Below, piece after piece: positions 10,938 through 58,358 of a stretch of 64,000 nucleotides of DNA. Source of the stretch: Eutreptiella sp. 'Long Island Sound 2002' (taxonomy: Eukaryota; Euglenozoa; Euglenophyceae; Eutreptiales; Eutreptiaceae); the NCBI GenBank assembly GCA_964036045.1, contig OZ038378.1, positions 176,722,341-176,786,340 of the forward strand, in the 5' to 3' direction. The translations under genes and the position numbers were made by a program. The stretch's first letter is position 1, and each line of letters starts with the position of its first letter. The notes beneath the pieces are model-generated. The model was not told the DNA's origin. It searched no databases and worked only from the letters and a program-made list of their open reading frames with translations.

Positions 10938-10953
10938 CTCCCCTCCTTGGGGT
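10938..10953 (-). other. Element C polypurine tract
   Basis: On the sense strand CCCCAAGGAGGGGAG lies directly upstream of the 3' LTR start (TGTACCGTGG). Confidence 0.72.
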
Positions 10954-17917: not shown

Positions 17918-17920
17918 TCA
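17918..17920 (-). promoter_or_regulatory. Element C gag TGA, candidate readthrough stop
   Basis: The sense strand reads TCA AAC TGA AGG GGC CGT. The same frame is open for about 80 codons beyond the stop, up to the C14 run. The context matches the stop-NGG-RG(C/A) pattern of the other elements. Confidence 0.55.
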
Positions 17921-23390: not shown

Positions 23391-23402
23391 AAAACGCTAC
23401 CA
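23391..23402 (-). other. Element C primer binding site
   Basis: The sense strand reads TGGTAGCGTTTT immediately after the 5' LTR. Only the first eight bases match the other elements, so a different tRNA or a degenerate match is possible. Confidence 0.65.
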
Positions 23403-29390: not shown

Positions 29391-29401
29391 CCCCCCTTCT
29401 C
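29391..29401 (-). other. Element D polypurine tract
   Basis: The sense strand reads GAGAAGGGGGG directly before the 3' LTR. The same tract precedes the D' LTR at 9062-9072. Confidence 0.82.
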
Positions 29402-29784
29402 AGAGCGTTGTATCCGCTCGGAAACCAATGAAGAGAGGACGGGAGGACCCCAATGGGCTCCAACCCCCCCCTCCATGTCCCAAGGACACATGGAGGCCCC
29501 ACACACGTCGTAGGCGTCCCCCATGCCCCAAGGGAGGGGTGAGGACACTGATAATCAGCGCCCTACGCCATATCCGGTCTCCTCTTGATCTACAACATGG
29601 ACCAAGGGGATCAAAGATAGAAAAACGTCGTCGGTCGACCTAAATAAGTATACCACAATGCAATATATATGTGGAGATCGAGTGAAGGGGGTATATGGCC
29701 GATCAAGGCCGAAAAATCCCCGGATGAACGCCCTCACTTGTCTCCCCATTCACAGAAACAAACAAAATGCCAAGGGGGGATCCA
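29402..29784 (-). other. Element D 3' untranslated tail
   Basis: No gene is seen. Positions 29402 to about 29640 are homologous to the D' tail at 8815-9061 (inverted). Confidence 0.75.
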
Positions 29785-34851: not shown

Positions 34852-34854
34852 CTA
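34852..34854 (-). promoter_or_regulatory. Element D gag TAG, candidate readthrough stop
   Basis: CAA GTC TAG AGG AGC CCC on the sense strand, then open into pol. It closely matches element E (TAG GGG AGC CAC), although the two elements are otherwise very different. Confidence 0.68.
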
Positions 34855-37962: not shown

Positions 37963-40241
37963 TTCTCAAAATCCTCAAAATCCAGGGTCCAAATCCAAAA
38001 ATATAGAAAATGTAATCCTCCTTCAACCCTGAACAGCAACCAGATCCCACAAGTATAGCAATAACCCAATTCAGAATCCAAATCAGGCTGCGGGCTTTCG
38101 TTCAGCACACCGGTATTCCCACGGTGGCGGGCATGTACAAGAATTGCACCAAGGAAGAAAGCCCTGAAATTGGCATATGAACACAAATAAAGCAAAGTTG
38201 GGGAAAGAGGTAAACATACACATTCACAGCCATAAACCCCTCATTCCCTGGACTCAAGACCTTCCCTTGCCTCATCAACATGATGCCCTGAACCCAGTCC
38301 AATAAGATGGTTAAATGCCACATGTCAAAAGTCATTACATAAACCCCAAAAATGTGTTCACTCCCAAGCCTCTAAATCCTAGCCCAATGGGGGAGGTGGC
38401 GTGTCATGGCCCAGAGTGGCACTCAGGACCATGCCCTACCCTGACATAACCTTGGTTGGACTTGGAGTCGAATGGGCTTGGAGAAATGACCTATGAGTTT
38501 GAACTCATAACATGCCAAAAAACTGCCAATTCACACCATATTGGCCATATATCACATATATGCTCAAAATTGAAGTTACTACTTATCCAAAGACTCAAAG
38601 CATGCATGGAATCGAAGTCTAGTATTCATGGAGGATAGAGACCAAAGGCCAATGCCCATGTACATCCCCACTTTACCCTCGAAACCCCTTCGGATATGGG
38701 CGCCACGCACTGCCCAAGTCAGCCCATGATCTTGAGACCAAATCTTGTGATCCTTCGTGCGCCAAGCCAAATGGAGTACGCGATCCGGCATATGGTGGTG
38801 TTCAACTCCAAAGCATATGCCAACATATGAACAACATACCATGGTTCGATTCTCCATAGGCTTCTTGCTGATTGCCGACCAGGTGAGTACGCAAAATGCA
38901 AAAATGAGCAAAAATTGAGGTCAAAAACATGAAAATATGACCAAATACAAAGTTGTCATGATAGTATATCTCTATGCTCACCCATGATGTCCGCTCATGA
39001 TTCAATACACAAATGATTGGAACCATTTGCGAACAATTCCCCCACTTGGATCCCCAATCGGGCGCATGGAGATACCTTCGCCACTAATATCTACATGCCC
39101 CATGAAAATGGGAGTGCAGCCATGGATCTCTTTGTCAAACATACCATGAGCAATACATACGCGGTAGACTTGGTCTAGCGCTTTGAATTCCACAATTGGG
39201 ACATGGGCAAAGCCCTTGTCACGTATGGCTCCCCATCTCTTCGGCCACACGAAGATATATAACATGGGCGTGAGCATATCAAACATATACCATGCATACA
39301 ACACATACCCTCAAAATATGGCTCCCACCATGATATGCCTTGTCCCTCCATTGACATAACTTCACGTTAAAAATACGTAGGAACCCAAGGAAAGTTGCTA
39401 TGCAACCCCAACACTCATGCGGTACACTCGAAAGTCACAATAAAATGTTCGGTTGCACGGTCCAAGAGTTATATATCACTTTATACCCTCTTGACCATTA
39501 TCCCTTGCTATATCGGGCATGTGTACACACCAAAGGCGTTTGATGCTTCCTAAATTAAGTTGAGACTAAGGCAGTTCCAACCCAACCTTCCTTATTCTCT
39601 TTCCTCACACTCGCTCGTAGATATGGCTCTTCAAAGTGGTCCCACGATTCGCTTTTGTTTCCCTTATATCTCCAAGTCAAATGGGTGGCAAGTATAAGGG
39701 AAACCTGATTCGGGCATAGGGAAAAGAGTACGACCACTCGAAGAAGTCCAAATCAAGTGCGGCGATGTCGAAGTCGAAAATCCGATTTCGACATCGCGAA
39801 AAATTCTGATTAAAATTTCGAGTGCTTATTTAGAGAATTGCGGATGCAACGAACCCTTTGCTGATGAAATCTGACCCTTCAACGGAATATCCGCCAAAAT
39901 ATCTGGAAATAACAGTTAACCAATCGGTTAACGCAAAATCGCGAGCCAACTGACAGTCGCCGATACATTGACCATCAGAACAAAAGGCTGAAAAATTACG
40001 GAAGCATTATGATAATAAAACCCTGTTGATTCCTGATATTCCGATATATAAATCTCCGCTGGCGACGCCTCGGTTCTGAATATGGCCGCTCATCGCCGGA
40101 ATGGCCCAACCTATCACACTATCACATCGGGTTAGATCAGGTGGATGGGAGAGTATGATATCAGCCAATGGCGGCTTGCCGGCACATAGATACACAGCCC
40201 AAGTGACCCCAAGATGGCCACGGGGGTCCAAACCGGCTTCA
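37877..40241 (-). mobile_element. Element D 5' LTR (2365 bp)
   Basis: Partner of 27026-29390. Its sense end is CTTCTTTA rather than CTTCTTCA. Followed on the plus strand by gcgc (40242-40245), the second target duplication. Confidence 0.93.
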
Positions 40242-43200
40242 GCGCAAGACGCCTATTGGGAAGCCCGGATGGGGGAGTATGCTTAGCGTGGTGGACGGAG
40301 GTCTTACCTCCATTCCCTGGGAGGATCTGGACCCGACTCTGGTCCAGGCTATACAACGAGAAAGCGATGGACTCGCCTTGGGTGACTTGAAGGATCGACT
40401 AAGACCTCAAGATGCTGTTGAGACTACACCCGGAGGAGATGAGTACGTCGTGACTGACACCAACGCCCACAACTCTCCCTGTCATGTACCTGTTCCTGAT
40501 GGAGTCCCTGAGTGTGGACTATCTGAGCTACCTAGCTCTATCCCCTCAGAAGACGAGACTGAGCACGACGCCTTCTTCGTGCAGACCTGTGTGGAGGAAG
40601 TGGAGAACGCCGAGTACGTCGCCCCACTGAAACCCCTACTCTCCATGAGGGTGGAAGACCCCGTGGACGAGGAGCTGGACCCTCGATCCAGGCTCAGGGA
40701 GTATGTGGATTCCAAGAGGAAGTTGGTGGCGAAAAAGCTATGCTACGCGAAGCCTACCCGCAGCTCATGGCCACTGAAGCAAGGACGTATGGGAGACCTA
40801 TCCCAATTGAAGGAGGACCTCGAACAGAAGTTCACCACCTGGCAAAGGGAGGTGGATCTTAAGCTCATGAAGTGCGTGTGGGGCGCCCATGTGAGGACCC
40901 CAGAGGAGGACGACCTCTCAGAGGAATGTGTATGTGAACCCCCTCGAGCGTGCCTATTTTGCCATCGTCCACCGGAGATGGTTGAACAAGACCTTCTATA
41001 CGCCTACCAAGGGCTGAAGGATACTACCACGGGCGAAGAGTCGGTGGAGGATCACCTCCCGACGTCTATTCAGGGGGCAAGCAACTTGCACTCTGACGAG
41101 GACATGGAGGACAAGATCAAGGTATTGGACCCGCGGGTACAGAAGCTTATAAGGACCTATCTGGAGGTGTTCGGAGAACTACCCCCTCCAGCCTCATGCG
41201 ACAAGCTGGTACAAATGGACCTCAAGCTGAAACCCGAGTTCGTGGGCCACAAGATCCGAAGGAGACCCTATCCAGCTCCTAAAGAGCAGGCCGACGAGAT
41301 TGAGCGACAGATACAAGAATGTATCGACGCTGGCCTAGTCCAGGAGTACAAGGACGGGGACTACCCCCTACACTGCAGCCCCTGTTTCCTGATGGCTAAA
41401 CCTGGGTCTACAGCCAAACGGCTGGTAGTGGACTACGGAGAGCTGAACAAGAAGACGCTGAACCACTCAGGGTCCATTCCCAATATGGAGTCTACCCTGG
41501 AGAAGATAGCCTCCTGCCGCTACAAGACCAAGATGGACAAGCGAAGCGGATTCTGGCAAGTGGACCTGACACCCAACGCACAGGAACTACTGGCCTTCAT
41601 CACCCCTCGGGGGAGGGTGTTCAAGTGGAAGGTCATGCCGTTTGGCGTGGCTAACGCACCCGCTCTGTTCCAAGAGCTGATGAACAAGATCTTGTCCATC
41701 CTACGAAGGAGACCTAAGGTGCAGGAGCTCATATCCCGTGGTGCCCAGATGGAGGCTCACATCGACGATGTATGCCTCGGGACCAATACCCAGGAGGATC
41801 ACCTAATCCTCTTGGGTGAGTTCTTTGCGGTCTGCCAGGAGAACCACACACGACTCAAGCTGGAGAAGTGTGAGTTCATGCAGGAGACCATGCAGTACCT
41901 GGGGTTTGACGTTGGCTATGGGTGGTGGACCCCAGCGGCCTCTAAGGCCAAACCCCTGATGGATGCCAAGGTACGACACGAAGACCCCAAGAAAGGACTT
42001 CATGATGTACGCAGTTTCATTGGGGCGTGCAAATTCTATCGCCGCCACATCAAAAACTTCACCTACACCAGCGCCGTTCTGACGGACTTGATCAAGAAGA
42101 GTACTACTTGGCGCTGGGGCCCACAAGAGCAACAAGCGTTTGACGAGCTCAAAGACAAGATAGCCAACGCTAAGTGCTTGGGCGTGCCTAGGGCACAAGG
42201 GGAGATTATCCTGGTGACCGACACCAGCAATGTGGGCGGTGGTGGAACGTTGTTCCAATGGCAAGCACTAGAGAAGGAGGAGTTCGACTCGGCCATTTCC
42301 CAATGGGGGACGGAAGGTCTCAACCGAGATGGAACCCTCAAGCACAGCTACCCTGACGACAAGTGGGTTCTAGTACCTCTGGGCCACTGGAACTGGAAGT
42401 GGAACCAGGCCAGGGGGAACTACTCCACCTATGAGCAGGAATTGCTCGCGGGTATGCTGGTGCTATCCTCACAAGCACGACTGTTGGGGAGTAACCCTGT
42501 GGTCTGGCTGTGCGACCAAGAACCGGTCCGCAGTTTCCAGAAGGGTCCCCCACCTGAGAAGGCCAAGCTACGGCGCTGGTGGACCTACCTCAGTCAACTA
42601 CGGCTGACGGTACACCATATCCAGGGAGTGAAGAACGAGTGTGCCGACTACATCAGCCGCAACAACTTCGACGCCCTGATTAGTGCCCGGTCTGAAGCGC
42701 TGGCTAAGGAGGCGTTCAGCCGCATGGACGTCCACTTGGACCTCAACATGACGATGATACGCCCCCTGGATGGACTCCAACAATCGGAGTACCTGAAGGA
42801 GTTCGGGGATATCTACAAGCGCCTGGAGAAACGCCTTGAACCCCTCCTGGTCAACCAAGACCAGTGGAAGAGGGACAAGAGCTACCTATGGCACGAGGAC
42901 CGTATTGTGGTGCCTAGTGACCGAGTCCCAGCGCTGCTGAAGTGGACCCATGAGTCCAGTGGTCATGTGGGTGCTGACCGCACCCTGAGGTTGTTCAAGC
43001 AGTGGTTCCACACTACGTGGACCGACGACCAACTGCGGAAAACCCTCCTGCCAATCGTGGACAAGTGCCCGTGCAGGTCCTGTAAACCAGGGGATATCAG
43101 GGACAGAGGTCTCTACTCGACCCTGCCCATCCCTCACTGTGCTAACAGTGTTCTATACGTGGACTACACGGAGATGCCGAAGTTCGGGGGCTATGACTTC

Positions 43201-43631
43201 GCCCTCGTGGTAACCTGTGGGTTGACCAGGTTTACCAGGGTGTTCCCATGTACCAAGCACATTACCGGGGAGGAGACTATCAAGATACTCCTGGAGGAAT
43301 GGTTTTGTGTCTATGGGGCGCCAAAGGAGATCAACTCCGATGAGGACGTGCGAGTACGCTCAGATACTGGCTGGTACAAGAGGGTCCTGAGATCCCTCAA
43401 TGTCCAGGTGTCTACGGGGATTCCCTACTCTCACACAAGCAACCCCCTATGTGAGCGACAGATCCGCGTCCTGAAGGAGAACGTACGGATATGGTGCAAA
43501 ACTGAACGCACCAGAGACTGGGTGAGACTACTCCCCGTCATATCCTTGATGATGAGCTCCCAAGAGAGTTCAGCTACTGGCTACTCGCCCCATGAGCTAT
43601 TCCTCGGGCGCCCGGCATGGTTCCTACATGC
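40242..43631 (+). pseudogene. pol: Element B pol, piece 2: end of Dam-like domain, RT, RNase H, integrase core
   Basis: The frame resumes at 40246 after the second gcgc and is open to the E insertion. It begins with the end of the Dam-like unit (MLSVVDGGL at 40279, matching FLSIIDGSL of A). A 250-residue linker rich in acidic residues follows. RT starts near 41150 and has HIDDVCLG (near 41758) instead of YxDD. RNase H has TDTS at the usual TDAS site. Integrase shows a His/Cys finger and the triad YVDY (43156), NSDED (43334) and CERQ (43450). The ORF visible past 43631 is LTR sequence of E. Integrase resumes at 54615. Confidence 0.92.
43627..43631 (+). repeat. Target-site duplication of element E (left copy, catgc)
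   Basis: Corresponds to cctgc at 54610-54614, with one mismatch. Removing E and one copy keeps B's frame across HAPYPED, which aligns with the A integrase. Confidence 0.78.
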
Positions 43632-44165
43632 TGTAAGTGCGGCTAACCCCCATCTGCTCAGATTTTCACTGATCTGCCCCAGATTGGCTACATTTTGGTC
43701 ATTTTCTCTGCTTCGGCGGAATCGCCGTCCCGCAGCTCAGTCTCAGGATCAGACCTATATATTTCTGATGTGCCGGATCTGATTCCGCGGTCCATTCATC
43801 GTAAATCCGCCGCGTTCCGATCATTTACCCGGAATCGCCATTTGCCGCTGACGCGCGTGCGCGAGCCAGATCGGCCAAATATTTTTTCACAATCGGATTT
43901 ATATAAATCTTTTCAGATAGATATGGACACTCAGATGTACTTAGGATAATCCGCATCAATTTTCTTCATAGACTGGGATTTTTTGCCGGATAACAATCAG
44001 CATGGATCTTGCCTCCGTTGTTGCTGCTCTCGCCTCCGTTGGTGTCCGTGTATCCGGTTCTGCCCCCAACAGCAGCGTTCAGGTCGACTCCTCGCGTGCC
44101 TGCCCCACTGGTCTTGCCGGCCCTGAGCCCTCCGGCACCATCAACGACCCAGGGCAGCACTTTCA
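43632..44165 (+). mobile_element. Element E 5' LTR (534 bp)
   Basis: Matches 54076-54609, with one difference noted (T at about 43727 versus C). It begins TGTAAGTG and ends CACTTTCA. It contains a TATA box and the gag ATG. Confidence 0.95.
43898..43906 (+). promoter_or_regulatory. TATA box in element E 5' LTR
   Basis: TTTATATAAATC about 100 bases before the gag ATG. A start site some 30 bases downstream would leave a short leader and place the ATG on the transcript. Confidence 0.55.
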
Positions 44166-47034
44166 TGGTAGCAGAGGCTACCTGAATGTTGCTTCAGTGG
44201 TCTCTGCTCCACAGCTCGCTCCCCAGTACGGCCCCGTAGACCCCGCCGCTTCTGGAGAAGTAACGATTACACTGCCTTGGTGCTGTGCGAACGAGGCCTT
44301 GAGAGGAATGCCTTGCGCAAGTCCAAGCTGCCCAAGAAGGGCGCACATCAGCAGCTGTGGAGACCCAGATTACCATAATCCCAGTCGAAACTGGCCATCG
44401 AGCAGCTGGAATCCGCCGGCCTACGACGATGGCAATGCTCCGGTAGACCTTACGGAGCTGGCAGGTACCAACATTCCTTACGGAGGTCCAACATTTGAGA
44501 CCACGGACGCCGATCTGAACGACATTGAGATGGGCGGTCCAGGTGAGGTACCTAGCTATAATCGACCAGCCTCTTGGGCACATTGGGACGACCATTTGTC
44601 CCTAGAAGTGACCCGTAACCTTGAGAGCCTTGAGGCCCTTTGTTGGTTAGCGTCGTCTAAGCTGATCGAACAAGAAAGAATCGCCTCTGATTTTTTAACG
44701 GAATATTTTTTCCTCCTTCAGAACGAAATTAATACCAGGATGTGGTGGTGTTCTCAAGAAGATGACTCTTTTGCCATTTTTTTGCAGATCTGGGAGGCAA
44801 GCCCCTTCCCGAAGGAGAAGGGCTGCGCACCTGTTCCCGGGCCCTCCGCCCCTCATCCCCCTGTTTCCATCCGCGACGATCTAGCCGCCGCGGTTGAGGA
44901 AGGAATTTTAGAGGCGGCCAGGCAGGCAAGCCTGGAAATCAGGGCTGAAGGAGCTCCCCAAGTGGACTCCTGGCTGCGGACCACCGAGATCAGCGGTCCG
45001 ACAGCCTGCTCAGGCCCTTCAGGACACGGTATGTACTGTCCTGCCGACTGCTCCTGCAGATTCCAGCGAGATGCTGAGCTCCAATTGCTCAAAGATCAAA
45101 TGCACCTCATCATTCAAACGCTGGGAATAAAAGATCTTTTCAAGACGCACATGCGGTCTGAGGGCGCCTCATCGGTGGAACAAGCAACAGAGCCATCGGA
45201 GGAGGCGACAGAAATTTTTTCAATTGCTCCTTCGGTGGACTCCAGGACCACTGATGCAAGGATCAGCAGGACCAAGTTAAAGGAAAGGGTTAAGATCTCT
45301 CGTTCTGAGAGTAGGACGGCGAAGGCTAGGACTGAGGCTCAGAATGCCAAGCGAACTGCCTCCCGTACTGCCCCTCCTGCTGCTGATTCCAATACCTTAG
45401 CCCAGCTGTTGCTCGCCCAGACCCTCGCCGGAGCTGGTGTGGCGAATGATGCCGCCAAGGTGTCTGCCATTACGGCCGGTGTTGGGCTGGATTCGCTTCT
45501 TAATCCTACTTCCTTGCGACTTCGTCAGGTTGCCAAGCAACCGAAGTATAATGGGAACCCCCGACGTTGGCCTCAGTTCCAACGGGAATTTAAACTGTGG
45601 GTTAAGACTCAAAAACTCCAAGATGATCAGTTCCTGATGGCCCTCTTGGATTGCCTTGAGGGAGCGCCGGCCAACACTTGGCTCAGGACTTGGAGTGATC
45701 GCGAGGATACAAGTTCCCCCCTTACCTTTGATGAGGTGTGGGAACAGTTGGAGGTACGTGGATCCCGGCTGCCAGAGGACCACTACCACCAAATGTTGAA
45801 GAATTTTCCTTCATTCTCACGATTAATTTTGCACGAAGTGCAAGATAAAAAACAGCGCTTCTGGAATTTAGTGGAAGAAGCTGAACATTCAGGCGAAAAA
45901 TTTTCTAGTGCCGAGCTGAAAAGTCTGATTTTTGACAAGATCCCCTCAGAAACTGCCGCCACCCTTCGGAACAAACAGTCCGAAGAAAAGGTCAAGACCT
46001 GGTGGGCGGAGGTGGAAAGCTTCGATGCCTCTGCCAACAAGTTCTCCGTCAGGGAGGCACTTCAAAAGTGCTCCCCCACGTCCTTCTCCAAGGTGAAATT
46101 CACTGAGGAGACGTGGAAAATCAAGTTTCATGAACACGAGGATCGGGACTTGTTTGTCCAAGTCCTCAACAGGGGAGTCAGCTTCCATGGCCATCGCCTG
46201 AGGGCCAAAAACTGGGTGTTTTCGTACACCCCGAAAGAACTCTGGGAGGAGGTTGAGCGGCTCGCCGACGCCGCCAACCAGAATTTCCATGAGGGTCTTG
46301 GGGGAAACAAGAATACCCAGCAAAACACCCAAAATGGGGCCCAAAAGGTCAACAAAAAGGTGAATGACACCCCGAATGTTCAGCAGCACTGTAGCATCTG
46401 CCTTCTTTTAGGTTCTACGAACCGAGCTAAGACGCATTCTACTGATAATCACCGATGGTCTCCTTACGATCACAAGGTGATTGGTGAAAATATCAGTAAT
46501 TCGCAGAATTCAGACAGGAATGACAGACAGGTGCACGGTGGGAAGGCTGGAAAAGGGAATCCGACCCCCTCCGGTGGAAACAAAAATCCTGGAGGCCCTG
46601 GCGGGTCCCAAGGCACAGGAAATCGGACTCCATCCGGCTCCGGTGGGCAGCCGAACGGCCAGAAAAATCCCAATAGCAACGCCGGAGGCGGAAATCGAAA
46701 TACAGGCCAAACCCCTCAATCCGGTGCAAACAAGGGAAATGCTCCAGGATTCCAGGGTAAAGGTAAGGGAAATCCTTCGGGAACCCCTTTCTCTGGTAAG
46801 GGCAGAGGGCGTGGCGACGGTGGAGGTCCATCATCCGGCGGCCGTGGCCGTGGACGTGGAAAGGGCAACCATCGTGTGGATCAGGTCTCAGGTGCAGATC
46901 AGGTGTCCGATGCGGACCGAGATTACGTTGAAAATGCCTTGAATCCAGCAGATGATCCGCTCCAAGATGAGTGGGTCGACGAATCAGGGTGTGTCCACAA
47001 TGTTAACGCAGCCACTGGAGGTCAGAACGCCTAG
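44002..47034 (+). CDS. gag: Element E gag, starting inside the 5' LTR
   Basis: An intact ORF of 1,010 codons. The ATG at 44002 lies in the LTR, 11 codons after an in-frame TAG, and the frame runs through the LTR end and PBS (read as HGSRGYL). The first 450 residues are low in recognisable domains. The capsid-like region begins near YNGNPRRWPQFQREFKLWVK (about 45546). A CSIC...H...H cluster (about 46390-46450) may be a divergent zinc finger; no classic CCHC is present. The C-terminus is Gly/Asn/Lys-rich and probably binds RNA. It ends with TAG at 47032-47034 in frame with pol. Confidence 0.88.
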   Translation: MDLASVVAALASVGVRVSGSAPNSSVQVDSSRACPTGLAGPEPSGTINDPGQHFHGSRGYLNVASVVSAPQLAPQYGPVDPAASGEVTITLPWCCANEALRGMPCASPSCPRRAHISSCGDPDYHNPSRNWPSSSWNPPAYDDGNAPVDLTELAGTNIPYGGPTFETTDADLNDIEMGGPGEVPSYNRPASWAHWDDHLSLEVTRNLESLEALCWLASSKLIEQERIASDFLTEYFFLLQNEINTRMWWCSQEDDSFAIFLQIWEASPFPKEKGCAPVPGPSAPHPPVSIRDDLAAAVEEGILEAARQASLEIRAEGAPQVDSWLRTTEISGPTACSGPSGHGMYCPADCSCRFQRDAELQLLKDQMHLIIQTLGIKDLFKTHMRSEGASSVEQATEPSEEATEIFSIAPSVDSRTTDARISRTKLKERVKISRSESRTAKARTEAQNAKRTASRTAPPAADSNTLAQLLLAQTLAGAGVANDAAKVSAITAGVGLDSLLNPTSLRLRQVAKQPKYNGNPRRWPQFQREFKLWVKTQKLQDDQFLMALLDCLEGAPANTWLRTWSDREDTSSPLTFDEVWEQLEVRGSRLPEDHYHQMLKNFPSFSRLILHEVQDKKQRFWNLVEEAEHSGEKFSSAELKSLIFDKIPSETAATLRNKQSEEKVKTWWAEVESFDASANKFSVREALQKCSPTSFSKVKFTEETWKIKFHEHEDRDLFVQVLNRGVSFHGHRLRAKNWVFSYTPKELWEEVERLADAANQNFHEGLGGNKNTQQNTQNGAQKVNKKVNDTPNVQQHCSICLLLGSTNRAKTHSTDNHRWSPYDHKVIGENISNSQNSDRNDRQVHGGKAGKGNPTPSGGNKNPGGPGGSQGTGNRTPSGSGGQPNGQKNPNSNAGGGNRNTGQTPQSGANKGNAPGFQGKGKGNPSGTPFSGKGRGRGDGGGPSSGGRGRGRGKGNHRVDQVSGADQVSDADRDYVENALNPADDPLQDEWVDESGCVHNVNAATGGQNA
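44166..44177 (+). other. Element E primer binding site (inside gag ORF)
   Basis: TGGTAGCAGAGG directly after the 5' LTR, complementary to an initiator-Met-type tRNA 3' end. It is read in the gag frame as GGT AGC AGA GG. Confidence 0.85.
47032..47034 (+). promoter_or_regulatory. Element E gag TAG, candidate readthrough stop
   Basis: AAC GCC TAG GGG AGC CAC; pol continues in the same frame with 43 open codons before the first near-cognate GTG (47164). No ATG opens pol. Confidence 0.7.
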
Positions 47035-50000
47035 GGGAGCCACGAAAATCGCCCCTCCCCAGGCGATTTCAGGCATGATCTTCAGATTCCTTCTCGACCA
47101 CTACTTGATGTAGGGTCGCTTGTCTCCTCTCCCCTGGATCCGGCAGCGGATCCTTCTGTTGTAGTGGACAGGGTTGGTGTACAGTCCAAGCACAGGGCCC
47201 GTCAGTTTGTCACAAAGCTGTGGGTCTCTGATTGCAAGGGCAATTTCCACCTCGCCACTTGTTTGTGTGACAATGGATCGGAGGTAAATCTCCAATCCAA
47301 TTCTTTCTTGCCTGACGACTGCGTGTTTGATTCGCCTCATCCTGTTACCCTCGAGGGAGTTTCTGGACACTCTCTCGCAGGTGGCAAACGCGGTTGTTAT
47401 ATATCAACTCATTTGGTCGCTCAAGACCTTTGGGAAGAAGGTAATGTGGAGGAAGTTATCCTTAAAGATGACTACTTCTATCGTGCCGACATAAAGTATG
47501 ACCTTTACTTGGGCCATCCTTGGCTTCGCAAGAACAGGGTGGCGCCCGTAGGTCATCGGCGTTGTTTTTTGCTGGAGTCAGGTCCCTTGGAGCGTCCTGA
47601 ATTTCGTTTTTTGCACGCAGGGTTTAAAAGTGCAGAAGAATTTTTGAAGCAAAAGGTTACACCAAAGTTTGGCGAAGATGTCACCATTGCAGAGGTGAAT
47701 GGGAGTGCCGATTACTCCCGAGAGTTAGAATGTCTTCGTAGGGACTCCCAGCCACGACGCCCTTCGCGCTGGCACTCTTCATCCTACAGAGTTGTCGACA
47801 AATGGCGCGATACAATTTGTGAATATTTTTATGAACACCATTCCTTTTGGCCACAGTATGATGCCTTTGCTAACCGCGAGAACAAGCGCTTTGACAAGCA
47901 CTTTCGTGACGCTTGGACCCATAAATGGGACAAGAAGTTATGGATTAATCCTCCGTTTCACTTAATCCAGCAGGTCATCCACAAAATCAAGCAAGATAAA
48001 ACCCAGGCGATTTTAGTTGTGCCCTTGTGGGACGACAAGCCTTGGTTTCAGGAATTGCAAGACATTTGTGTAGATTACATCGAACTTCCCAGGAAGATTA
48101 AGCTGTATGCCAGGGACGACACAGGTCCCCTGCCACAGCGGCCCTGGAGTTCGCTTGCATTCCTGGTGGATGGAAAGCTTTCTGACTCTGATTCTGCTGA
48201 TTCTAGTACTGATTCCTGTGTTGGGTCTGAATCTGAGGTTGAGCGTGGTACTGATGATGAATCTATTTTTTCTGATTTTTGTCCGTCAGATGCCCAAGGT
48301 GATCCAACGTCAAATGGATCCGCCTCGTCTCCCTCTTCCCCAATACGATCTACATCCAAAAGAATCTACGGCGCACGGACGACAAAAAAATTTTCTTCGC
48401 GCCGCAAATTCAGAGTTTTTTATGAAAAACCCCGTCTGGAAGCTTTCATAGATCCTTTCGAGGAGCTGGATCACGAAGAGAATCTCTGGAATGTCGACAC
48501 TCGACCCACCTATCTTCAAGAGGCAGTTGATACGGACCTTTTTAGGGACATCCGTAAGAAGATTCTTCCTGCCAAGGCCGAAGAAATCGCCAAAGTTTTT
48601 TCGACAGTAATTCCTGGCGATCAGGTGGACACTGAGTTGTGTTCCAAGAAAAGAGACAAGATTTTTGAGGAACGGAAGGACACAACCCTTTCGGGGAAGT
48701 TGATCAAAGACCCCCCTGTCCGTGGGCAGTTCGGTGAAGCCTTCATCGAGCTTCGTGAAGGGTACAAGGCGAAGAAACAGCGTCCTTATGAGAACCATGG
48801 ACAGAAACATGAGATACTCAGAAAAATAATCGAGAGAAATCTCAGGGAATTTGGTTGGCTTGAGGGTTGTATGACCAGCGAGTGGTGCTGTGCACCCTTC
48901 ACAGTCCCGAAGCCGCCGCCTGCAGACCAGAACACTATTGATGGTTGGCGAATGGTTGTTGATTTTCGCAACCTCAACGCCGAAACCAAGGCGGATTCAC
49001 ACCCCCTGCCCCTCATTGAGGAGGAAATCGCCAAGAGGGCAAGAGGTCGTTTGTTTTCTGTGCTGGATCTCCGTCACGGCTTTCACCAAATGCCGTTGAG
49101 GAAGGACAGCCGACCTCTCACCTGTATGTGCACGCCATGTGGCCCAGTCCAGTGGACGGTCATGCCCATGGGCCTGAAGAACGCCCCTTCGTTTTTTCAA
49201 AGAATGATGGAGGATGTGCTTTTTACAGCTCATCCTGAGCTTCGTGCCTTCGTGAGTGTGTACATAGATGACATAATCATCGCGACAGAGGGGGAGGGAC
49301 TGACCGAAGCCGAGCTGGTGGCCCTACATGAAAAGCAGCTGAACCAGGTTTTGGACATTCTTGATGCCAATCAGCTGATTTGTGGGCCAAAGAAGGGAAA
49401 ACTATTTTTAAAATCAGTCGAATTTTGTGGTTCTCTCCTTGAGAATGGCACCCGACGACCCAGTCCAGGGAAGCTCGTCGCTATTCAGAAGTGGAAGCGC
49501 CCTGAGACGATCACGGAATGGAGAGGATTCCTGGGTTGTTGCAATTTTTACCACACTTTTGTGCCGAATTATGCCAAATTTGCTGCCCCCCTCACTGAAC
49601 TATTGAAGGTAGGGAGAGATGCGGGCAAGGCAGGTTCAAAGGTTCGTGTCAAGTGGACTGACGAGTGCGAGGAGGCCTTCCATCACTTGAAGGCGGCCCT
49701 CTGCGAAGTCGCCACGTTGCATGTGCCGAAATTTGACCGACCCTTCTACATAAGAACCGACGCTTCTAGGTACGCGATCGGAGCTGTTCTTGAACAGGTT
49801 GATGAAGCCACCGGCGATCATTACCCTCTTGCATTTTGGTCTCGGAAGCTAGCCCCACGCCAAATGCAATGGTCGCCGCGTGAGCAAGAAACATATGCCA
49901 TAATCTGTGCGCTGAAAAAGTACCAATCGTGGGTTGGCACCAATCGAGTCGAGGTCCTGACGGATCATCGATCTCTGGAGTATTGGGCCACCGAACACAT

Positions 50001-52217
50001 TGATACTGTCGCGAGCCCAGCTGGTCGACGGGCCAGATGGCACGAATTTCTCAGTCTGTTTGACCTCCATGTGTCGTATTTGCCTGGAAAACACAACACG
50101 GTAGCGGATGCTCTGAGCCGATGGGCTTACCCCGCTTCAGAGGGGCTGCAAAGTACCAACATCCATGGTACGGAGCAGGACCGCCACGTCGTGATCGAGT
50201 GGGATCAAGAAGAAAAAAAGCTCATCCGACGTGAATGCATGCAATGCGCTGTTAAACAGCATGCATTACCGTGTCATGACATCACGGCCTTCTCAGATCC
50301 GGCGCATGCTCATGAAATTATAACCAAATCACTGAAAGTCGTGGAGAAAGTCACCGATCCCTCCTCAGGGAGTGTGAAACGGTTTGAGTATACCCGGCCA
50401 GTAAGTGGATTTCGGTTGATTCAGGGCATTAAGCGTCGAGATCCGGCCAAAACTCCACCCCTGCCGAAAGATTCCCTTATCATCCGTGACTGGACGTCCG
50501 ATTATCTGCATGATTCCATGTTTAAAGAGGTCTTTGAGAATCTCAAATCCAAAGATGCTCACAAGGATGGAATTTTTTCTGAATATTCGTTGGATGGGGG
50601 GAAGCTGTGGATGGAGGGTAAATTGTGCGTACCAGACGCCCTGGCCCCCCGAGTGTTAAACTGGTGGCACAAATGGGAGTCCCCCCACGCACATGGCCGT
50701 AGATTATGGTCGATGATTAAACATAGGTTGTTCGGCACACGGCTATATACTCATTGTATGAAAGTAGCCGCCGGATTTGCCCAATGTGCTGTCTCGACGC
50801 CCCCCAGCGCGAAGAAGCACGGCCATCTGAGGCCACACCCTATTCCGGAGCGCCTCTTTAACAGAGTCACCAGTGATTTTTTCCATCTTGGTGAACTCGA
50901 CGACGAAGAGTGCCATTGGACGAATAAAAAAGTCAATGGTGTGCTCCTTATTCAGTGCCGTCATTCCGGCTACATTCAGGTGTTGCCTTGTAACATCGAG
51001 TCGATGACTGGCAAGGCTGCCGCCAAATGGTGCGCGCAGACCTGGATGGGAGGTTGGGACGTCCCATCCGAGGTGGTTACGGAGTCAGGCAAAGAGTACA
51101 CCTCCGAATGGTGGAGGGAATTATGTGCTCGCCTTGGAATCCACCACCTCAGATGTGAAATCCACTCACATCGAGCGCTGCCTGGCGAAAGAGCCGGCCG
51201 CTCCATTCTAAATATGCTTCGTAAGGAGCTCGCCAGTGAGAAAGACTTCCATTGGCTTGAAGTTCTCTTCGCATTGCTTCGCCGTTACCACAACACGCCT
51301 TTGTACCATGGCCTTTCTCCAAATGAAATTGTCTTTGGACGAAAGAAGTGTTGGTGAAACATGCCGTTGAATAATCCTCGCCCTTGTAAAGATGCTTCGT
51401 TGTTTTTGGACGAAATCCAACGAGCAGAAAAAACTGTCTCGAAATTAATCGATAAGCATCAAGCTGACTGGCTTTGGGTCCAGAATCAAGGCCGAAAAAA
51501 CCCCCACAATTTTGAAGTCGATGATCGAGTTTGGCTTCGAAAATCCGAAACCACCCTGGGCGGAGATGATAAGCTTCTTCCCTTGTGGAAGGGGCCATTC
51601 GCTGTTACAGCGCGTCTAGGTGAGAACAGGTGGAGGATTCGTGTGGATGTCAGCAGGGAAATTGAAGTTTCGGCGATTGCCTCAAGAGAGAGATCCCCTC
51701 CCCCAAGGATCGGGTTAAACCCCTTTTTTGGACTTCGAAATTTTTGTCCGATCGGGTCATCGAAGGGGGGAAGTACGAACTCAAGAGGATTTTAGAAGCA
51801 AGACGTGACGAAAAGGGCGAATGGGAATTTCTATGTGAGTGGAGGGGCTTTGATTCCAGTCACAACAACTGGGAACCAGCCCATTCTTTTGTCCATGGGT
51901 ACACCAAGGGGTTCATCGACTTCCTCAAGAAGCACCCCGAAATGGGCGTACTCCTGACAGACTGTCTGTCGAAACCAGACAGACAGGTGGAGAGCGACGG
52001 AAAAAGACCTGTGGTGAATCGAGATCCAGCCTTTTACGGCCCTCAGCAGCCACATTCCAGGGCTGATCCGTCGATCCCCCCTCCTGCGGTCAGGCCAGCC
52101 CAGGAGCCAAATGAGGACCAAGCTTCGAGTTCGGCCGCTGATCTACAGCGCCCAAGCCGTACGAGGGCCCCACCAGACAGGTTGGTGGTCACATGTATTC
52201 GTGCTTGGCCGAATTGA
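47035..52217 (+). pseudogene. pol: Element E pol: protease, Dam-like domain, RT, RNase H, integrase, chromodomain (TGA and frameshift near end)
   Basis: Counting from 47164: protease with CDNGSEVNL (about 35-43); Dam-like domain with YDAFANRENKRF, LWINPPFHLIQQ (about 260-270), ILVVPLWDDKPWF and LAFLVDGKL; an acidic Ser/Asp linker; RT with YIDDIIIA (about 700); RNase H with RTDAS (about 864); integrase with an HHCC-like finger, TSDFF (about 1236), TESGKEY where other elements have TD (about 1304), and a Glu in LPGERAGR (about 1340). A TGA at 51355-51357 interrupts the frame, which continues in the same frame to about 51670. There a one-base loss shifts it into the frame holding the chromodomain (EFLCEWRGFDSSHNNWEPA, about 51825-51885), ending at 52217. 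Confidence 0.88.
47860..48180 (+). other. Dam-like methyltransferase-type domain in element E pol
   Basis: The clearest copy in the window: PQYDAFANRENKRF, then KLWINPPFHLIQQVIHKI, QAILVVPLWDDKPWFQEL and LAFLVDGKL. The pattern D-x-x-A/F-A-x-x-x-N-K, W-x-NPPF, hydrophobic strand-P, and WF resembles the phage/DIRS type of DNA N6-adenine methyltransferase, including the NPPF motif IV. Confidence 0.68.
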
Positions 52218-54065
52218 GGGAGGCATCCCAAGACTTGAGTCGCCGACGCCCTAGATTGGCTAACAGTCGTCTAGTCCAGGGCGTCATGGCACTCGTCGCT
52301 AGGGCTCAAGGGTGTAGGTTCGAAACCCTTGCATGTCCAACTCCTACAAAAGCTCCAGCCTCGCCCCGTCGACCACTTATTCCAATGTGAGTGTTCTGAC
52401 GACTTGAAAAAACCACATTCTGCTCAATCCACTGTTCATTCTTCCTGATTACGACATGATGTGGAGAACTGCGAATGTTTGATAATTTGACGTCAATCAA
52501 CTTGTCTTTGGTCTCCGTTCGGCAGACAAGGCGTAGATACGCTGCCGAAAGCCACGGAGTGTGCTGCCGTGTCCAGAAAAAACCAAACTCAGGCTTAATT
52601 CAGGCAGATCCGGGGTAATCTTGTCTCTGTTGGTCTGTGCATCTTTGGAATTTGGCTACTCGTGCAGATGGAAGCAAATGTACATAGTAAAAACGCTGCG
52701 CAGCGACATTCACCCCTACAGGCACCCCCTGTAGTACTGGCTGCACTAGATGCGACGCCAGGAACTCAGATCTTACCTTCATTTGCCGTGATGCTGAAGC
52801 CAAAGTCCAGATTCAGATCCAGATTCCTTGAATTTACCTTGAATTCCTCAGGTTTGTCCATCATTCTTGCACTGTTGCAGCAAAACCCCGACGTCAATTG
52901 TTCAGACAACCTTCATACAGGAGCTCCAGGGACTTCTAACAGTAACCTCTCGGACCTCAGAGCTTCCGTAAGCTTCGTTGTATTTTTGGCACGCGCCAAT
53001 GTGAGCTCAATCCGACCTGAAACTGTCGAAAAGGGTGAATCCAAGTGTCTTGTGGGACTCAATCGAAAGATGGGCCTTGTCCAAGTCGATTGACACCGCC
53101 GCCACTGTAAATAAAGGACTATGCGGTGTCTCTCAGTTATATACTGTCAGTAAAGCGCCTTCAGCGAACCTTCGGCGCGTTACATGCCAAGGATCCAGGG
53201 CTATCATGTCCCATCATGATGCATCATCACATGATCCACATTTTCAATGAATCTGTTGGATGCTCGCGAACCAACGTGCCGGAAAGCATAACTCAGCTGA
53301 ATAAACGACAATATATATTAACTCTAGTCTAAACGAAGTTGTTAGTAGTTTCAGTTCTAGACATTCCGCTTCATTTCACTTTCATCTTAGGGAATTTGCT
53401 GATTTTAGGACAATTTAGGTTGATTTCCTTGTCATCTCCTCTCATTCAACGAAGTTAGGCAAGTTAGGCGAAGTTAGTTCGTTGACGCTGATGTTTTTCT
53501 GTTCACTTAGGGCCTGCAGACTACATTTGTATTTGTTTTCCCTCTCTGTGATTGTTTCATCTCCTTCATCTCTGCTCAAATTGACTCTCAATCTTGCTGA
53601 ATCTTGTGATCATCCACCAGATGCGCCAAGTCTGACGCACATGCTGCACTTTTCAGAACGAGAAAAGCGGGAATAACACGATGTAGAGTACGTGGAGGAC
53701 ACCGTAGCGTGCCCGCGACAGCTAAACTGTGCCAGAGCGCCGAGATGTCACTCCATCTCTTGATTCCCCCACTCAATCCACCAATAATCTACCTCATTCG
53801 CAACCAGGGCATGGTTTGGTATCGATTCTCGATACGTTTACATGCTTTTTAGCCCTTAACCTAATGTTTTACTGCCCGGAGGACTGTTCGTCACTCCTCA
53901 TTCTGTCTCATTTCAGGTTCATCCATCCTGATTCAGTGCCAATTCAGCCCAAATCAGGTCAGATCAAGCAGATTTCGCCCCATCGAGGCTACATTTCTAT
54001 TTTTTTCTGGGACTTACCCGCACTACGTTCTTCGTTGACGTAGCGACACACCCCAGTGTGTTTTT
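52218..54065 (+). other. Element E 3' untranslated region
   Basis: A stretch of 1.8 kb between pol and the polypurine tract with no supported gene. The last 720 bases are shared with E' (1-713). A tRNA-like block sits near its start. Confidence 0.7.
52258..52352 (+). other. Degenerate tRNA-like block in E 3' region
   Basis: GGTTCGAAACC (near 52317-52327) fits the pol III B-box, with GTCTAG and GGCACTCGTCG upstream resembling D-arm sequence. The flanking CAAGGGT...ACCCTTG can pair. The stems do not form a complete cloverleaf, so it is at best a tRNA relic. Confidence 0.3.
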
Positions 54066-54075
54066 GGAGGGGGAG
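54066..54075 (+). other. Element E polypurine tract
   Basis: GGAGGGGGAG directly before the 3' LTR, the same as in E'. Confidence 0.82.
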
Positions 54076-54609
54076 TGTAAGTGCGGCTAACCCCCATCTG
54101 CTCAGATTTTCACTGATCTGCCCCAGATTGGCTACATTTTGGTCATTTTCTCTGCTTCGGCGGAATCGCCGCCCCGCAGCTCAGTCTCAGGATCAGACCT
54201 ATATATTTCTGATGTGCCGGATCTGATTCCGCGGTCCATTCATCGTAAATCCGCCGCGTTCCGATCATTTACCCGGAATCGCCATTTGCCGCTGACGCGC
54301 GTGCGCGAGCCAGATCGGCCAAATATTTTTTCACAATCGGATTTATATAAATCTTTTCAGATAGATATGGACACTCAGATGTACTTAGGATAATCCGCAT
54401 CAATTTTCTTCATAGACTGGGATTTTTTGCCGGATAACAATCAGCATGGATCTTGCCTCCGTTGTTGCTGCTCTCGCCTCCGTTGGTGTCCGTGTATCCG
54501 GTTCTGCCCCCAACAGCAGCGTTCAGGTCGACTCCTCGCGTGCCTGCCCCACTGGTCTTGCCGGCCCTGAGCCCTCCGGCACCATCAACGACCCAGGGCA
54601 GCACTTTCA
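54076..54609 (+). mobile_element. Element E 3' LTR (534 bp)
   Basis: TGTAAGTG...CTTTCA, equal in length to the 5' copy. Directly followed by cctgc (54610-54614) and then B integrase sequence. Confidence 0.95.
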
Positions 54610-55317
54610 CCTGCCCCCTATCCAGAGGACACCCATTCTTCTGTGGGTGAATGGGTCCAAGAGCAACAAGCGAAGGTGGACAAGGCCAAGGCTATGCTCC
54701 AGAGAGTGAGGGAGCGTCAGTGGAACAAGAAGAACAAGCACCGAGTACCGGCCACCTACCAAGAGGGGGACTGGGTGCTGGTGCACCACAGTCGACTACC
54801 CGCCTGGCCACGCTCTACCAGCGATGACCCATACTTCGGGCCGTACAAGATTCTATCTGTGGATGGTCACCGTATCACTGTGCGGTGTTCTCCCCGACTA
54901 GGGGGGACCCTGGTGTGCGCTGCTCAACACCTGAAGCACTACCATGATCCTGAAGACCTCTGTGGGGAGGAGTGGGAGCTGAACGACGAGGAAATCGCCG
55001 CTCTGGACCTACAAGGGGCTGCCAGCCCTATGGAAGTTGAAGGTGAACTCCCCGACATGAACGCCGAGGAGATGGCTAAGGAGGGCTTCTACCTGGTGAA
55101 GTCTGTCCTACGCCACCGCTATTGCCAGGGTTGGCGCTTTCTCACCCTCTGGGAAGGGTTTGGAGTCGAAGAGGCCACCTGGGAGCCCTTCTCTGCATTT
55201 GTTCTACCGAAGGGACGCCTAAACTCAGTTCTGGTTGACTACTTGTCCCAGAACAACCTTGGTGAGTTGCTGAGGCTCGCTGAGACGCTTGCCTCCAAGA
55301 CTAAAGCCAGGGACTGA
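54610..55317 (+). pseudogene. pol: Element B pol, piece 3: integrase C-terminus and chromodomain
   Basis: It continues the frame from 43631 after one TSD. The integrase C-terminal region includes GDWVLVHHSRLPAWPR, DPYFGPYKIL and RVRCSPRLGG-like sequence (here TVRCSPRLGG), closely matching element A. The chromodomain (about 55090-55215) reads YLVKSVLRHRY, then RFLTLWEGFGVEEATWEPF. It ends with TGA at 55315-55317. A chromodomain at this place is typical of chromoviruses and can direct integration to modified chromatin. Confidence 0.92.
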
Positions 55318-57562
55318 ACCTTACCCTTACCTGCCAAAGCGTATGTGTGAGTGTGCTAGTCCTAAGGTCCTGAGAGCAAGCCGCAGAAGTGGTGTCCTAA
55401 TTATACCCAAGTCTGCGCCCTTGCTAAACCTGGAGGGTTGGCTTATTGATGCCACGGGGTACGCCCCGGGTCTCCCCTCCCCTAAGCGCCCAATTTCTGT
55501 GCTGGCGCAAAACCTTTGGGGAATACCCAGCGTACTAATCCAGGTATTGTTTTCCCTACCTATCTGTCTACTACAGGGAGGGGTGGCCAAAAGCTATGAA
55601 GGCTTGAAAACGCCGTTTTGCTATGTGGCCAAAACACTGACCTAACCACTGCCACAGCCCACCAACCCTGCTAAAATTGCAGGAAACGGGTGGGACAGTG
55701 ACACACGCACTACAGGTCCTACACACCCTACAGTGGCACCATCCTGGTGGGCGAGCACTGTGCAACTGGCTCAAGCCCCCACTCAGGACTACCACTCCTA
55801 CACGCACACTCTACTGGGCGTTGTGAAGGCAAAGGTCTCGTGGGTCCTAGCGACCCTCCTGTGAAATGACAAGAGAACACAGCGCTGCTGAGCAACTGTG
55901 GCCTAACAGGGGACGCCACAACGCGTTTCCCCTGCTAGGGCTTGGAGGGAAGAGGTGCTCTTGCGTGCACGGCGCAGATGTCGATGAAGTCGGACTCCCT
56001 GCTCTGCCACAGGCAAAGGTGGAGTTACTTGTTTGTGCGATCTGCGCCCTTGTTTAGCAGGGCATAAAAAAATGCTGCTGCACCAATCACCCTACCTGCC
56101 CACCTGTAAAACAAAGGCAAATGAAAGGGCGTTTGCGGCTGAGGAACCAAGCCACACTCCAGGTATTATACCCTTCTCAGTGTGACCTATAATACACTGT
56201 CCGCAAACACGCTGGAGGACCAGCTACCCTTGTCAAGCAAGCAAGCTTTAAGGGACTCCTCAGGTTCTCTTAAAGAACGTACCGAGGAGCCCCTGGGTAG
56301 CCTAAACAAGGTTTACCGTGCGCACTTCGCGTGGCCTACCCTTTAATGCGTGTGTGCATGCGCGAGTATGCACGTTGATCGTGGGCAAACCTGCCCATCT
56401 GAGCGTCAATCACGACTCCACCAGGGGGTGGCCCCGCCTGGGCTTACTCACCTTACCTACCGCTAGAGAGAGAGAGAGCAAGTGAGGGGCGCACGCGAAG
56501 AACGTTGCTATGCGCTTGTGTGTATGTCTAATCACCCTGATCTGACCGCTAATCATCTGCAATCTTTCTAATCAATCCCTCTATCGCGTCCTATCGTTAT
56601 TAGCGCTGCTACAAGACTCGTTCACGGAGACACGAGACGAGCAATGTGTATGCGGCATACGAAACGAGCATACCTGTAGTTTATATCTGATTCATTGAAG
56701 TCTTTTTCGTTGATTTTCGAATTCTTGAATTTTTGAAGCTTCTATTAGTGTGGGTGGAATCTGTATGTTTATTTATTAATGTGTGTCTCGTCATTTTCAA
56801 GACTACGTGAGACATACGTTTATAATTCCATTATTTCTCCATTTTCCGGCGCTTCGCTAGGAGCCGCTCCTGCGCGCCGCCATTTTATGTGTATGAATTT
56901 CTGGATTTAAAAAGTCCAGAGATGACTATGATTTCTATAAAAATGTGCTTCTGATGCACAATTGGATTCTGCTCAGGTGTGTCGTTTCAGAAAAATTCTA
57001 CGCCGTCATTTGACGGATTTTGATGTCGTCGCTTCGTTTTTGCGTGGATTCGTCCATAATTCTCCCATTCCTGCCTCTGCAGATACCCACGCGCAGCCTC
57101 GCTGAGTAGGCCGTGTTCGGGCCGAAACGCAGGTGCCTGGAGAGACTGAGCAGAACCCAAGACCCCACCAAGGGGCAAATTAATTTTCTTCACGACTCCC
57201 TTCGCCCTAAGACAGGTCACAGGTCGCCAGCAGGTTTACGAGAACCCATGCGAGTGTGTATATTGTGTCTTGCGTTGGGTTTGTGTTGCGCTGCGTCTTG
57301 GAGGGAGGGATGCACATGCACATGTTTTGGCATGCTCCCAAACTAACCCAACCAAGCCACAGGAGCCCCGGCAGCGCCATGAGCGCTGAGTCTTCTGTAG
57401 GAAATGTTATAAACAGAGCAGCAGAAGAGCGCCAGCCATGGTGAGCGCCCATTTCTCTGTGTTAGGGAAACTATAGGTATTTTAAAGTAGATGTGGAAAC
57501 CAAGGAAAGGCCAAGAAAAAATCCCTTTTTCCTAAAATGCGACAGTGGTGGCCACCACAGCA
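55318..57562 (+). other. Element B 3' untranslated region (2.2 kb)
   Basis: No supported gene. It contains a short GA microsatellite (56466-56479). Short frames lack recognisable domains. Its length is unusual for an LTR retrotransposon tail. Confidence 0.7.
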
Positions 57563-57571
57563 CAAGGGGGG
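57563..57571 (+). other. Element B polypurine tract
   Basis: CAAGGGGGG directly upstream of the 3' LTR start AGTAAG. Confidence 0.75.
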
Positions 57572-58358
57572 AGTAAGAAAAAGTGCTTTTCCATTGCTTT
57601 GAGGCATACTCTAGTTGTATTAGAGATGCACTGAGCATCCATGCATTTTTATCTTAGTATTGGTCCCACCAAAAGTGTTGATAACACATTTTGACCTATG
57701 GAACCAAACACCCAATCAGGATATGGAGTGGACCCCTTAATCCCCTTTCAATCTGAAGCAAGTCATCTTGTCCTGAGTTGACTGAGAACTGACATATCCA
57801 AAGTAGAGCCTATGACTTTATCTATGTTTTTCCATGAATTCTTAGCTATCCTAGTGGTATGCACCCTAGGGGGCTGGGCACCTCTTTTTGAGAGGTCCTG
57901 GGTTCAATTCCTGGTCAGCCTAGCTAAGTAGGAAGATCCCATGTGACATGGCAGTGACCTCATCGCCACATGCCCTGCCACCTCAGCACATATGGGACCC
58001 AAAACAAAGAGTGCACATCTCCTGAGATGGCACTATGGAGAGAGAGTGACCATGGGGCAGTTTTCTAACTCTTTTCCCAAAACATTTCAGCTATCTTTGT
58101 GAATATGCATTCATTTGTGACCTGAGTTGCAGTTTCTGTGAATATCCAATCATCTTTCACTGTCTACACTGCAGCCCTTCATGCTTTGATCCTGATTCTC
58201 TTCTCCTTGCACACTACTGGCTTGGGTTATCCTGGATTGACTCTATTTCTGCAAACAAAAGGTTTTCATCTTCCAAAACAAGCAGCAGGAAACCCTACAG
58301 CAACAGCAAGCAGCAGGAGAAGCAAAAACACAGTGCTGAAACCATTATAAACTTTTCT
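57572..58358 (+). mobile_element. Element B 3' LTR (787 bp)
   Basis: Partner of 9196-9982, followed by gatag (58359-58363). It holds the second tRNA-like block at 57843-57925. Confidence 0.93.

Follow-up and report, generated by a model that had tools for sequence, protein, structure and literature searches.

A Dam-like methyltransferase domain ahead of the reverse transcriptase in Ty3/gypsy-type elements of Eutreptiella

A homologous domain in the pol region of five elements

The window analysed here, 64,000 nucleotides of Eutreptiella sp. 'Long Island Sound 2002' (assembly GCA_964036045.1, contig OZ038378.1, positions 176,722,341 to 176,786,340, forward strand), contains five Ty3/gypsy-type elements, designated A to E, each with a domain of about 145 residues, homologous among the five, that precedes the reverse transcriptase (RT) (Table 1). 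In element E, the segment 47860-48180 is a single open frame comprising DAFAN, WINPPF, VVPLW, PWF and FLVDG, and the extra unit that a preliminary description, made from the sequence alone, had placed at this point is thus borne out, being delimited here somewhat more widely. Along the 1440-residue frame of element E, the Pfam order is Dam-like segment, RT, RNase H and integrase core. This copy splits integrase and chromodomain between open reading frames (ORFs) at 51357-51666, and the related protein P0004 has both in one chain.

The alignment of the five window domains has four invariant columns (F, W, K and L). A profile made from E, A, C and three families outside the window (F, G and H) scores B with 64.6 bits and D with 38.1 bits among ten sequences; only these two are tests, as the remainder consists of the six contributors and two near-copies. 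With the B domain as query, the own genome yields relatives of families I, J and E that are 33-41% identical, with E-values from 9.7e-18 upward; together with the profile scores of B and D, this argues that finding the unit in all five elements is more than chance. Over the protease region and the domain, element E is collinear with B (BLASTP, 26%, E-value 6.6e-26) and likewise with D (20%, E-value 8.9e-8). The domain had been described as lying between protease and RT in all five elements. Its place ahead of RT holds for A to E, and also for F, G and H, whereas a Pfam protease reaches the cut-off in A and is seen below it in C and D, and no Pfam protease was seen upstream of the domain in B or E; the collinearity of B, D and E suggests that one may be present there as well. 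Also the motifs described as shared are only partly so: NPPF is intact in A and E, and is replaced by NPRF in C, LAPW in B and HGSL in D, the last also lacking P-x-W.

The assignment of the elements as Ty3/gypsy-type follows from direct long terminal repeat (LTR) pairs in B, C, D and E and from the order protease, RT, RNase H and integrase, in which the protease is seen by Pfam only in A, C and D; it is a sequence-based assignment by structure and domain order. Integrase core (rve) matches are found in the pol ORFs of A to E, all under the Pfam cut-off (E-values 3.1e-7 to 5.4e-5), and Pfam scans of these ORFs at E-values up to 1 and up to 0.1 gave no tyrosine recombinase (PF00589). We therefore reject, on the basis of LTRs, rve and domain order, that these are DIRS elements mistaken for gypsy. 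The chromodomain is over cut-off (25.1 bits) in B (31.4) and E (30.6) and under it in D (24.3) and C (17.2); Pfam showed none in A.

Table 1. Positions of the elements and of their domains within the window
Element	Feature	Position	Strand	Basis
E	Dam-like methyltransferase domain (DAFAN, NPPF, VVPLW, LVDG)	47767..48195	+	translation, profiles, predicted fold
E	NPPF, putative catalytic motif IV	47947..47958	+	translation
E	RT PF00078, downstream of domain	48907..49431	+	Pfam
E	RNase H PF17919/PF17917	49654..50058	+	Pfam
E	DDE integrase core PF00665, E-value 5.4e-5, under cut-off	50956..51168	+	Pfam
E	chromodomain PF00385, 30.6 bits, separate downstream ORF of this copy	51774..51884	+	Pfam
A	Dam-like domain (ELFAS, YANPPF, TPDW, IIDG)	4926..5363	-	frame location, alignment, profile
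A	aspartic protease PF13975, over cut-off, upstream of domain	5538..5792	-	Pfam
A	start of RT PF00078, E-value 0.019; remainder in ORF 1089-3728	3747..3962	-	Pfam
B	homologous domain, motif IV lost (LAPW)	15861..16298	-	frame location, alignment, profile, genome search
B	RT, next ORF downstream of domain	14336..14890	-	Pfam
C	Dam-like domain, first part (ELFAS, NPRF), cut by D insertion	26687..27025	+	Pfam, alignment, self-BLASTN
C	domain end WGSMLSVVDGGL beyond D insertion	40270..40305	+	translation; inferred from nesting
C	aspartic protease PF13975, 23.1 bits, below cut-off, upstream of domain	26243..26488	+	Pfam
C	RT PF00078	41398..41910	+	Pfam
D	homologous domain, motif IV lost (HGSL)	33538..33996	-	frame location, alignment, profile
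D	aspartic protease PF13975/PF13650, below cut-offs, upstream of domain	34192..34470	-	Pfam
D	RT PF00078	32251..32754	-	Pfam
C	whole element, holding B, D and E; LTRs 9195-9987 / 57571-58363, 98.7% identical	9195..58363	+	self-BLASTN
B	whole element; LTRs 10363-10938 / 23403-23978, 99.65% identical	10363..23978	-	self-BLASTN
D	whole element, nested in C; LTRs 27028-29390 / 37879-40241, 99.5% identical	27028..40241	-	self-BLASTN
E	whole element; LTRs 43632-44165 / 54076-54609, 99.8% identical	43632..54609	+	self-BLASTN

Sequence relationship to phage Dam methyltransferases

The preliminary description had read the unit as a relative of phage-type N6-adenine methyltransferases and pointed to Pfam Dam (PF05869, curated cut-off 28.1 bits) as a check. 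Among single window sequences Dam is indeed named, always under the cut-off: the E segment reaches an E-value of 1.5e-4 (21.9 bits; the best score of this element is 22.7 bits), A 0.085 and C 0.29, and no match was obtained for the B and D sequences of the window. The cut-off is passed inside pol by families F (40.6 bits, and 32.1 bits in its locus L048), G (36.4) and H (29.4). As the single window sequences are weak, the case for Dam rests on relatives, profiles and the predicted fold. When the own genome (2205 contigs, 2.28 Gb) was searched with PF05869, 150 places were scored, of which 93 have E-values up to 1e-3 and all exceed the cut-off; the 51 of these 93 that were read all match the profile of the retroelement domain, and in the long frames scanned the Dam match lies ahead of RVT_1 (L045 and L048 of family F, L050 of G, L049 of H). 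PHROGs, NCBIfam and Pfam agree in grouping families F, G and H among phage-type N6-adenine or DNA methyltransferases, the NCBIfam scores being under cut-off (TIGR01712, phage_N6A_met: best 40.3 bits, in G, short of 97.05 bits). No PHROG match was found for A, B or D, and no NCBIfam match for E, B or D, with A giving only 0.071.

A wider set of relatives was obtained from ENA records by searching with the domain alignment, which gave 713 of 1174 candidates at E-values up to 1; the best 120 of the 713 were used. In an alignment of 81 members (A4: 74 of these 120 candidates plus seven window or locus domains, D being left out), 49 match Pfam Dam at E-values up to 0.1. Direct comparison with phage sequences points in the same direction. 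By tblastn, the H domain matches a phage dam methylase with an E-value of 1e-5 over 83% of its length (residues 17-137 of 146; best of the 10 matches listed), and the G domain reaches E-values of 2 or worse among the 15 matches listed. By hhalign, a five-family profile aligns with six phage Dam proteins at 98.1% (E-value 9.1e-14, for this single pair and not database-wide) over columns 13-140 of 149, the values being 97.3% for the 81 sequences and 62.9% for E alone; nothing notable was seen for B, D or a linker control. The W-T-P and NNK motifs of the six aligned phage proteins are missing, only the W of W-T-P having a counterpart, in E and H. Viral contig scans with the E pol, the D pol and the proteins P0007 and P0008 found no relative, and searches of protein collections returned only near-identical proteins (three for E, one for G).

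Given that the window sequences stay under the Pfam cut-off, with A and C weak and B and D silent, the segment might be thought unrelated to methyltransferases: it could be of protease, RNase H or connection type, or its short motifs could be similar by chance. We regard this as very improbable in view of the profile matches of F, G and H, the tblastn and hhalign alignments and the predicted fold of E; in none of the Pfam scans does a match to a protease, an RNase H or a connection family fall on the segment, and such a match is an outcome that the preliminary description had named as one that would overturn it. A cytosine DNA methyltransferase (DNMT) was also considered, and there was no such Pfam match. 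Capture by one element only is rejected, as about eleven families (A to K, by our own delimitation) carry the domain. Several minor matches were taken as chance: phrog_22740 (function unassigned) to F, G and H at 1e-5 to 3e-5, a possible fragmentary relative, phrog_33262 to G at 0.011, Coatomer_b_Cpla to the E segment at 0.12, and, among the 81 aligned members, DUF3574 in three, as well as six singletons besides PCIF1_WW. As a separate observation, in P0092 (215 residues, from an ENA contig of 2602 bases) a Dam-like domain with NPPY (39.2 bits to Dam and a weak match to PCIF1_WW) comes after what by eye looks like the C-terminal part of an integrase; this is either another element architecture or a gene-model fusion.

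Predicted fold

The AlphaFold model of the element E domain (predicted local distance difference test, pLDDT, 89.6; predicted template modelling score, pTM, 0.86) has a predicted methyltransferase (Rossmann-like) fold, so that this further check comes out in favour of the earlier reading. Most of the 50 structure matches listed for the model are named methyltransferases, and the remainder are ribosome or ribosome-assembly entries together with 1ne2 and 7m6b, whose titles give no enzyme class. The best match among solved structures is an mRNA-cap adenosine enzyme, T4 and E. coli Dam coming lower, and in a viral structure library phage Dam predictions come first.

Since the best solved match acts on RNA, DNA as the substrate is not a given, and this makes RNA a serious rival: the domain could be an RNA adenosine methyltransferase modifying the RNA of the element, for example at the cap-adjacent adenosine as does PCIF1/CAPAM, a cellular mRNA-cap adenosine N6-methyltransferase with further domains, and this might serve stability, translation, packaging or hiding from RNA sensing. 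We nevertheless regard this reading as unlikely: the profile matches point far more strongly to phage N6-adenine or DNA methyltransferases, and in the viral library it is phage Dam predictions that come first. The sequence match to PCIF1/CAPAM is marginal and occurs in one relative. Sequence searches of the PDB with the E segment and with alignments gave no credible relative. Nor did such searches find a solved structure related to the phage Dam proteins, so that the PDB ranking may lack the nearest family.

Motif conservation and loss

Conservation was counted over 130 aligned rows, which are the 120 listed hits and 10 pol frames, include near-copies and are hence not independent. NPPF is exact in 95 of the 130, with N, P, P and F each present in at least 91%; near-fixed are the F and A of DxFA, W51, V69, K72, P-x-W, W92 and the D close to the end. 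By family, motif IV reads NPPF in A, NPRF in C (window copy) and NPPW in K, NPPF in E and H, NAPF in F, with one relative reading NAPW, and NPPF in G. It is lost in the other four: the four B loci read have LAPW and the three D loci HGSL, while I has NTRY, with DTRY in one copy, and J has NTKY. As B, I and J form one clade and D stands apart, the motif was lost at least twice, and activity can be claimed only for part of the families. The motif-less B and D are not relics, since both are found repeatedly and in long open frames: for B, the domain is identical in 15 scored copies, including that of the window, and frames reach 2106 residues, and all 150 scored places of D have at least 95% identity, many in 1688-residue frames.

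A further feature of J, I and B (loci L058-L065 and L051) is that they read VDVFGGSGD, MDVFGASGD and LDVFGSRGA, respectively, where other families read DAFAS/N. The classical motif I for S-adenosylmethionine (AdoMet) is F-x-G-x-G, and by this resemblance cofactor binding may survive in these families without motif IV.

Selection and descent

The constraint on the domain was analysed as the ratio of nonsynonymous to synonymous differences per site (pN/pS, Nei-Gojobori), pooled over non-independent pairs and skipping those with fewer than 20 synonymous sites. Pooled values are 0.12 for A (6 copies), 0.20 for F (34), 0.30 for E (9), 0.19 for H (2) and 0.07 for D (3), compared with 0.81 for I (10) and 0.79 for J (2); the B copies compared are identical. 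In windowed comparisons, which used 16 of 30 F loci and skipped pair windows below 70% identity, the A core gives 0.07 and the adjoining window 0.65. For F the domain gives 0.20-0.43 and RT 0.57-0.93, the latter indicating that the F copies compared are partly decayed. Between H and E, identity is 46-50% in the domain windows, 23-33% in the linker and 56-78% in RT. These results make constraint on the domain well supported in A and E, supported in F and H, and likely in the motif-less D, where the domain windows give 0.12-0.15, the linker 0.68-0.99 and RT 0.03-0.09 (three copies, small counts). It is not supported by pN/pS in I and J; within I, some pairs give 0.17-0.22 and the shown pairs with L070 give 0.74-1.11.

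The pattern in D, together with the loss of motif IV in at least two branches (B/I/J and D) whose B and D copies keep long open frames, speaks for a reading in which the fold is dead in all families, a structural or nucleic-acid-binding part of Pol (for RT processivity or particle assembly) in which NPPF is kept by descent only. This we also judge improbable, because N, P, P and F are each retained at the level given above while synonymous sites between families are near saturation (pS 0.76-0.90 in six pairs).

Trees of RT and of the domain agree in their best-supported splits; for eight families, both recover the A+C split and F with G as a pair. E groups with H according to RT (92/98), but the small domain tree, which carries a long-branch warning for D and B, joins it to B (90/90); in the larger domain tree E again pairs with H (93/87), and B, I and J are one clade (96/93). 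The larger tree holds five phage enzymes, a small sample that makes it a weak test of a single origin. The trees fit an inheritance of the domain alongside RT from a common ancestor, and early exchange would be possible as well. The notion of an old acquisition kept under selection, put forward in the preliminary description, hence finds agreement in the trees and in the pN/pS of A, E, F, H and D, with I and J as exceptions.

Organisation of the window

Self-BLASTN resolves four nested LTR elements: B, D and E have all inserted into a single C element and each is flanked by a pair of near-identical LTRs of its own, and the outermost pair is assigned to C from this nesting. The C domain is interrupted at 27028 by element D, and its ending WGSMLSVVDG resumes at about 40270. 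As B, D and E are inserted in C and have LTR pairs that are 99.5-99.8% identical, they look young. No LTR pair of element A was found within the 64-kb window. Families E and A seem to have expanded recently, since in the own genome all 150 scored places of the E domain are 100% identical and all 150 of the A domain at least 95% identical; first-look candidates, unconfirmed as copies, amount to 25,316 and 28,692, respectively.

Other repeats were noted by self-BLASTN. An opposite-strand copy of the D-type LTR at 58358-60607 (about 83% identical) has no full-length partner of its own seen in the window and is possibly a solo LTR, and a 473-base direct repeat (62970-63442 and 63528-64000, 100% identical) reaches the window end. 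Inside element B, imperfect tandem repeats at 20792-21307, with a unit of about 105 bases, encode a glutamine-rich sequence in a large minus-strand ORF.

Interpretation and proposed function

The reading that we favour, with moderate confidence, is an AdoMet-dependent adenine-N6 methyltransferase domain of the phage Dam type, compact and of class I (Rossmann-like), which is situated in Ty3/gypsy Pol after the protease and ahead of RT and for which we propose methylation of the complementary DNA (cDNA) of the element. This identity is supported by the near-whole homology, the predicted fold of E, the position, DxFA and NPPF being kept in A, E, G and H, and the low pN/pS in A, E, F and H. The weak scores of the window sequences, the cap-enzyme structure match and the loss of motif IV in several lineages weigh against it. 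A position adjoining RT is compatible with action on the nucleic acid of the element itself, without proving it.

If DIRS elements are taken as the model, the domain would enter the particle together with RT and would methylate adenines of the newly made cDNA, which could thereby avoid sensing or degradation, or carry a mark before integration. In B, D, I and J the fold may persist without catalysis, perhaps as a module that binds nucleic acid or AdoMet and helps RT; unless other residues do the chemistry, a non-catalytic role is the simplest reading of these sequences. The domain would have entered an ancestor of the families from a phage- or bacteria-type gene and then been inherited with RT. 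A broader formulation, on which our judgement is evenly balanced, is that a phage-type adenine methyltransferase is a standing domain of a deep Ty3/gypsy group, with the NPPF families marking their own cDNA or RNA and a conserved pseudo-enzyme in at least two branches.

The split between motif-bearing and motif-less lineages offers a natural comparison for the function of the domain. If the proposed activity is true, possibly thousands of element copies in one eukaryotic genome would encode their own adenine-marking enzyme, and transposon-written adenine methylation in a eukaryote would become directly testable.

Comparison with known systems

The following comparisons draw on excerpts of the cited papers. 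In these, Dam-type domains are assigned to DIRS elements, and cytosine enzymes to DIRS, long interspersed nuclear elements (LINE) and gypsy (PMC3266345, PMC3783388, PMC5890265, PMC6338049). No report of a Dam-like domain in LTR/gypsy elements was found by title or start of abstract among the top matches in open-access PMC papers, with Repbase outside the search, and a term search in PMC12440569 found nothing; the wording of one passage in the literature could be read as a mention of Dam in gypsy. Within this literature, the arrangement of a Dam-like domain ahead of RT in Ty3/gypsy elements looks new, in line with the preliminary description, whose author knew of none.

The phage-type DNA N-6-adenine methyltransferases (PF05869, TIGR01712, phrog_111) are alike in near-whole-domain homology, D-x-[AF]-A, NPP[FY] and a matching predicted fold, and differ in that the domain is here fused into a retrotransposon polyprotein, lacks W-T-P and NNK and has lost motif IV in several lineages. 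The DIRS methyltransferase domain is likewise a Dam-type PF05869 domain in a retrotransposon pol (PMC3266345, PMC3783388). However, DIRS elements, compared here by description, have the order RT, RNase H, methyltransferase, a tyrosine recombinase and no protease or DDE integrase, whereas the window elements have the domain before RT, LTRs and rve; also, DIRS terminal repeats are inverted or split, in contrast to the direct LTR pairs of B, C, D and E. Methylation of cDNA has been proposed for DIRS elements with cytosine methyltransferases (PMC5890265). That the same kind of enzyme is found in unrelated integration systems, DIRS and Ty3/gypsy, points to a need at the cDNA or RNA stage and not at integration.

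KnitGypsy-Dnmt3 of Klebsormidium nitens is similarly a DNA methyltransferase captured in a Ty3/gypsy Pol (reported Ka/Ks <0.2), but is a C5-cytosine Dnmt3, and Dam-like adenine enzymes are structurally unrelated to cytosine DNMTs (PMC5890265). The ParB-methyltransferase of the Ectocarpus DNA transposon Sola1-1_Ec32 (PMC12477816) shares with the window domain that a predicted N4-cytosine or N6-adenine methyltransferase is carried by a eukaryotic transposon; by its description it differs in belonging to a DNA transposon, as a separate gene and with a ParB-like domain.
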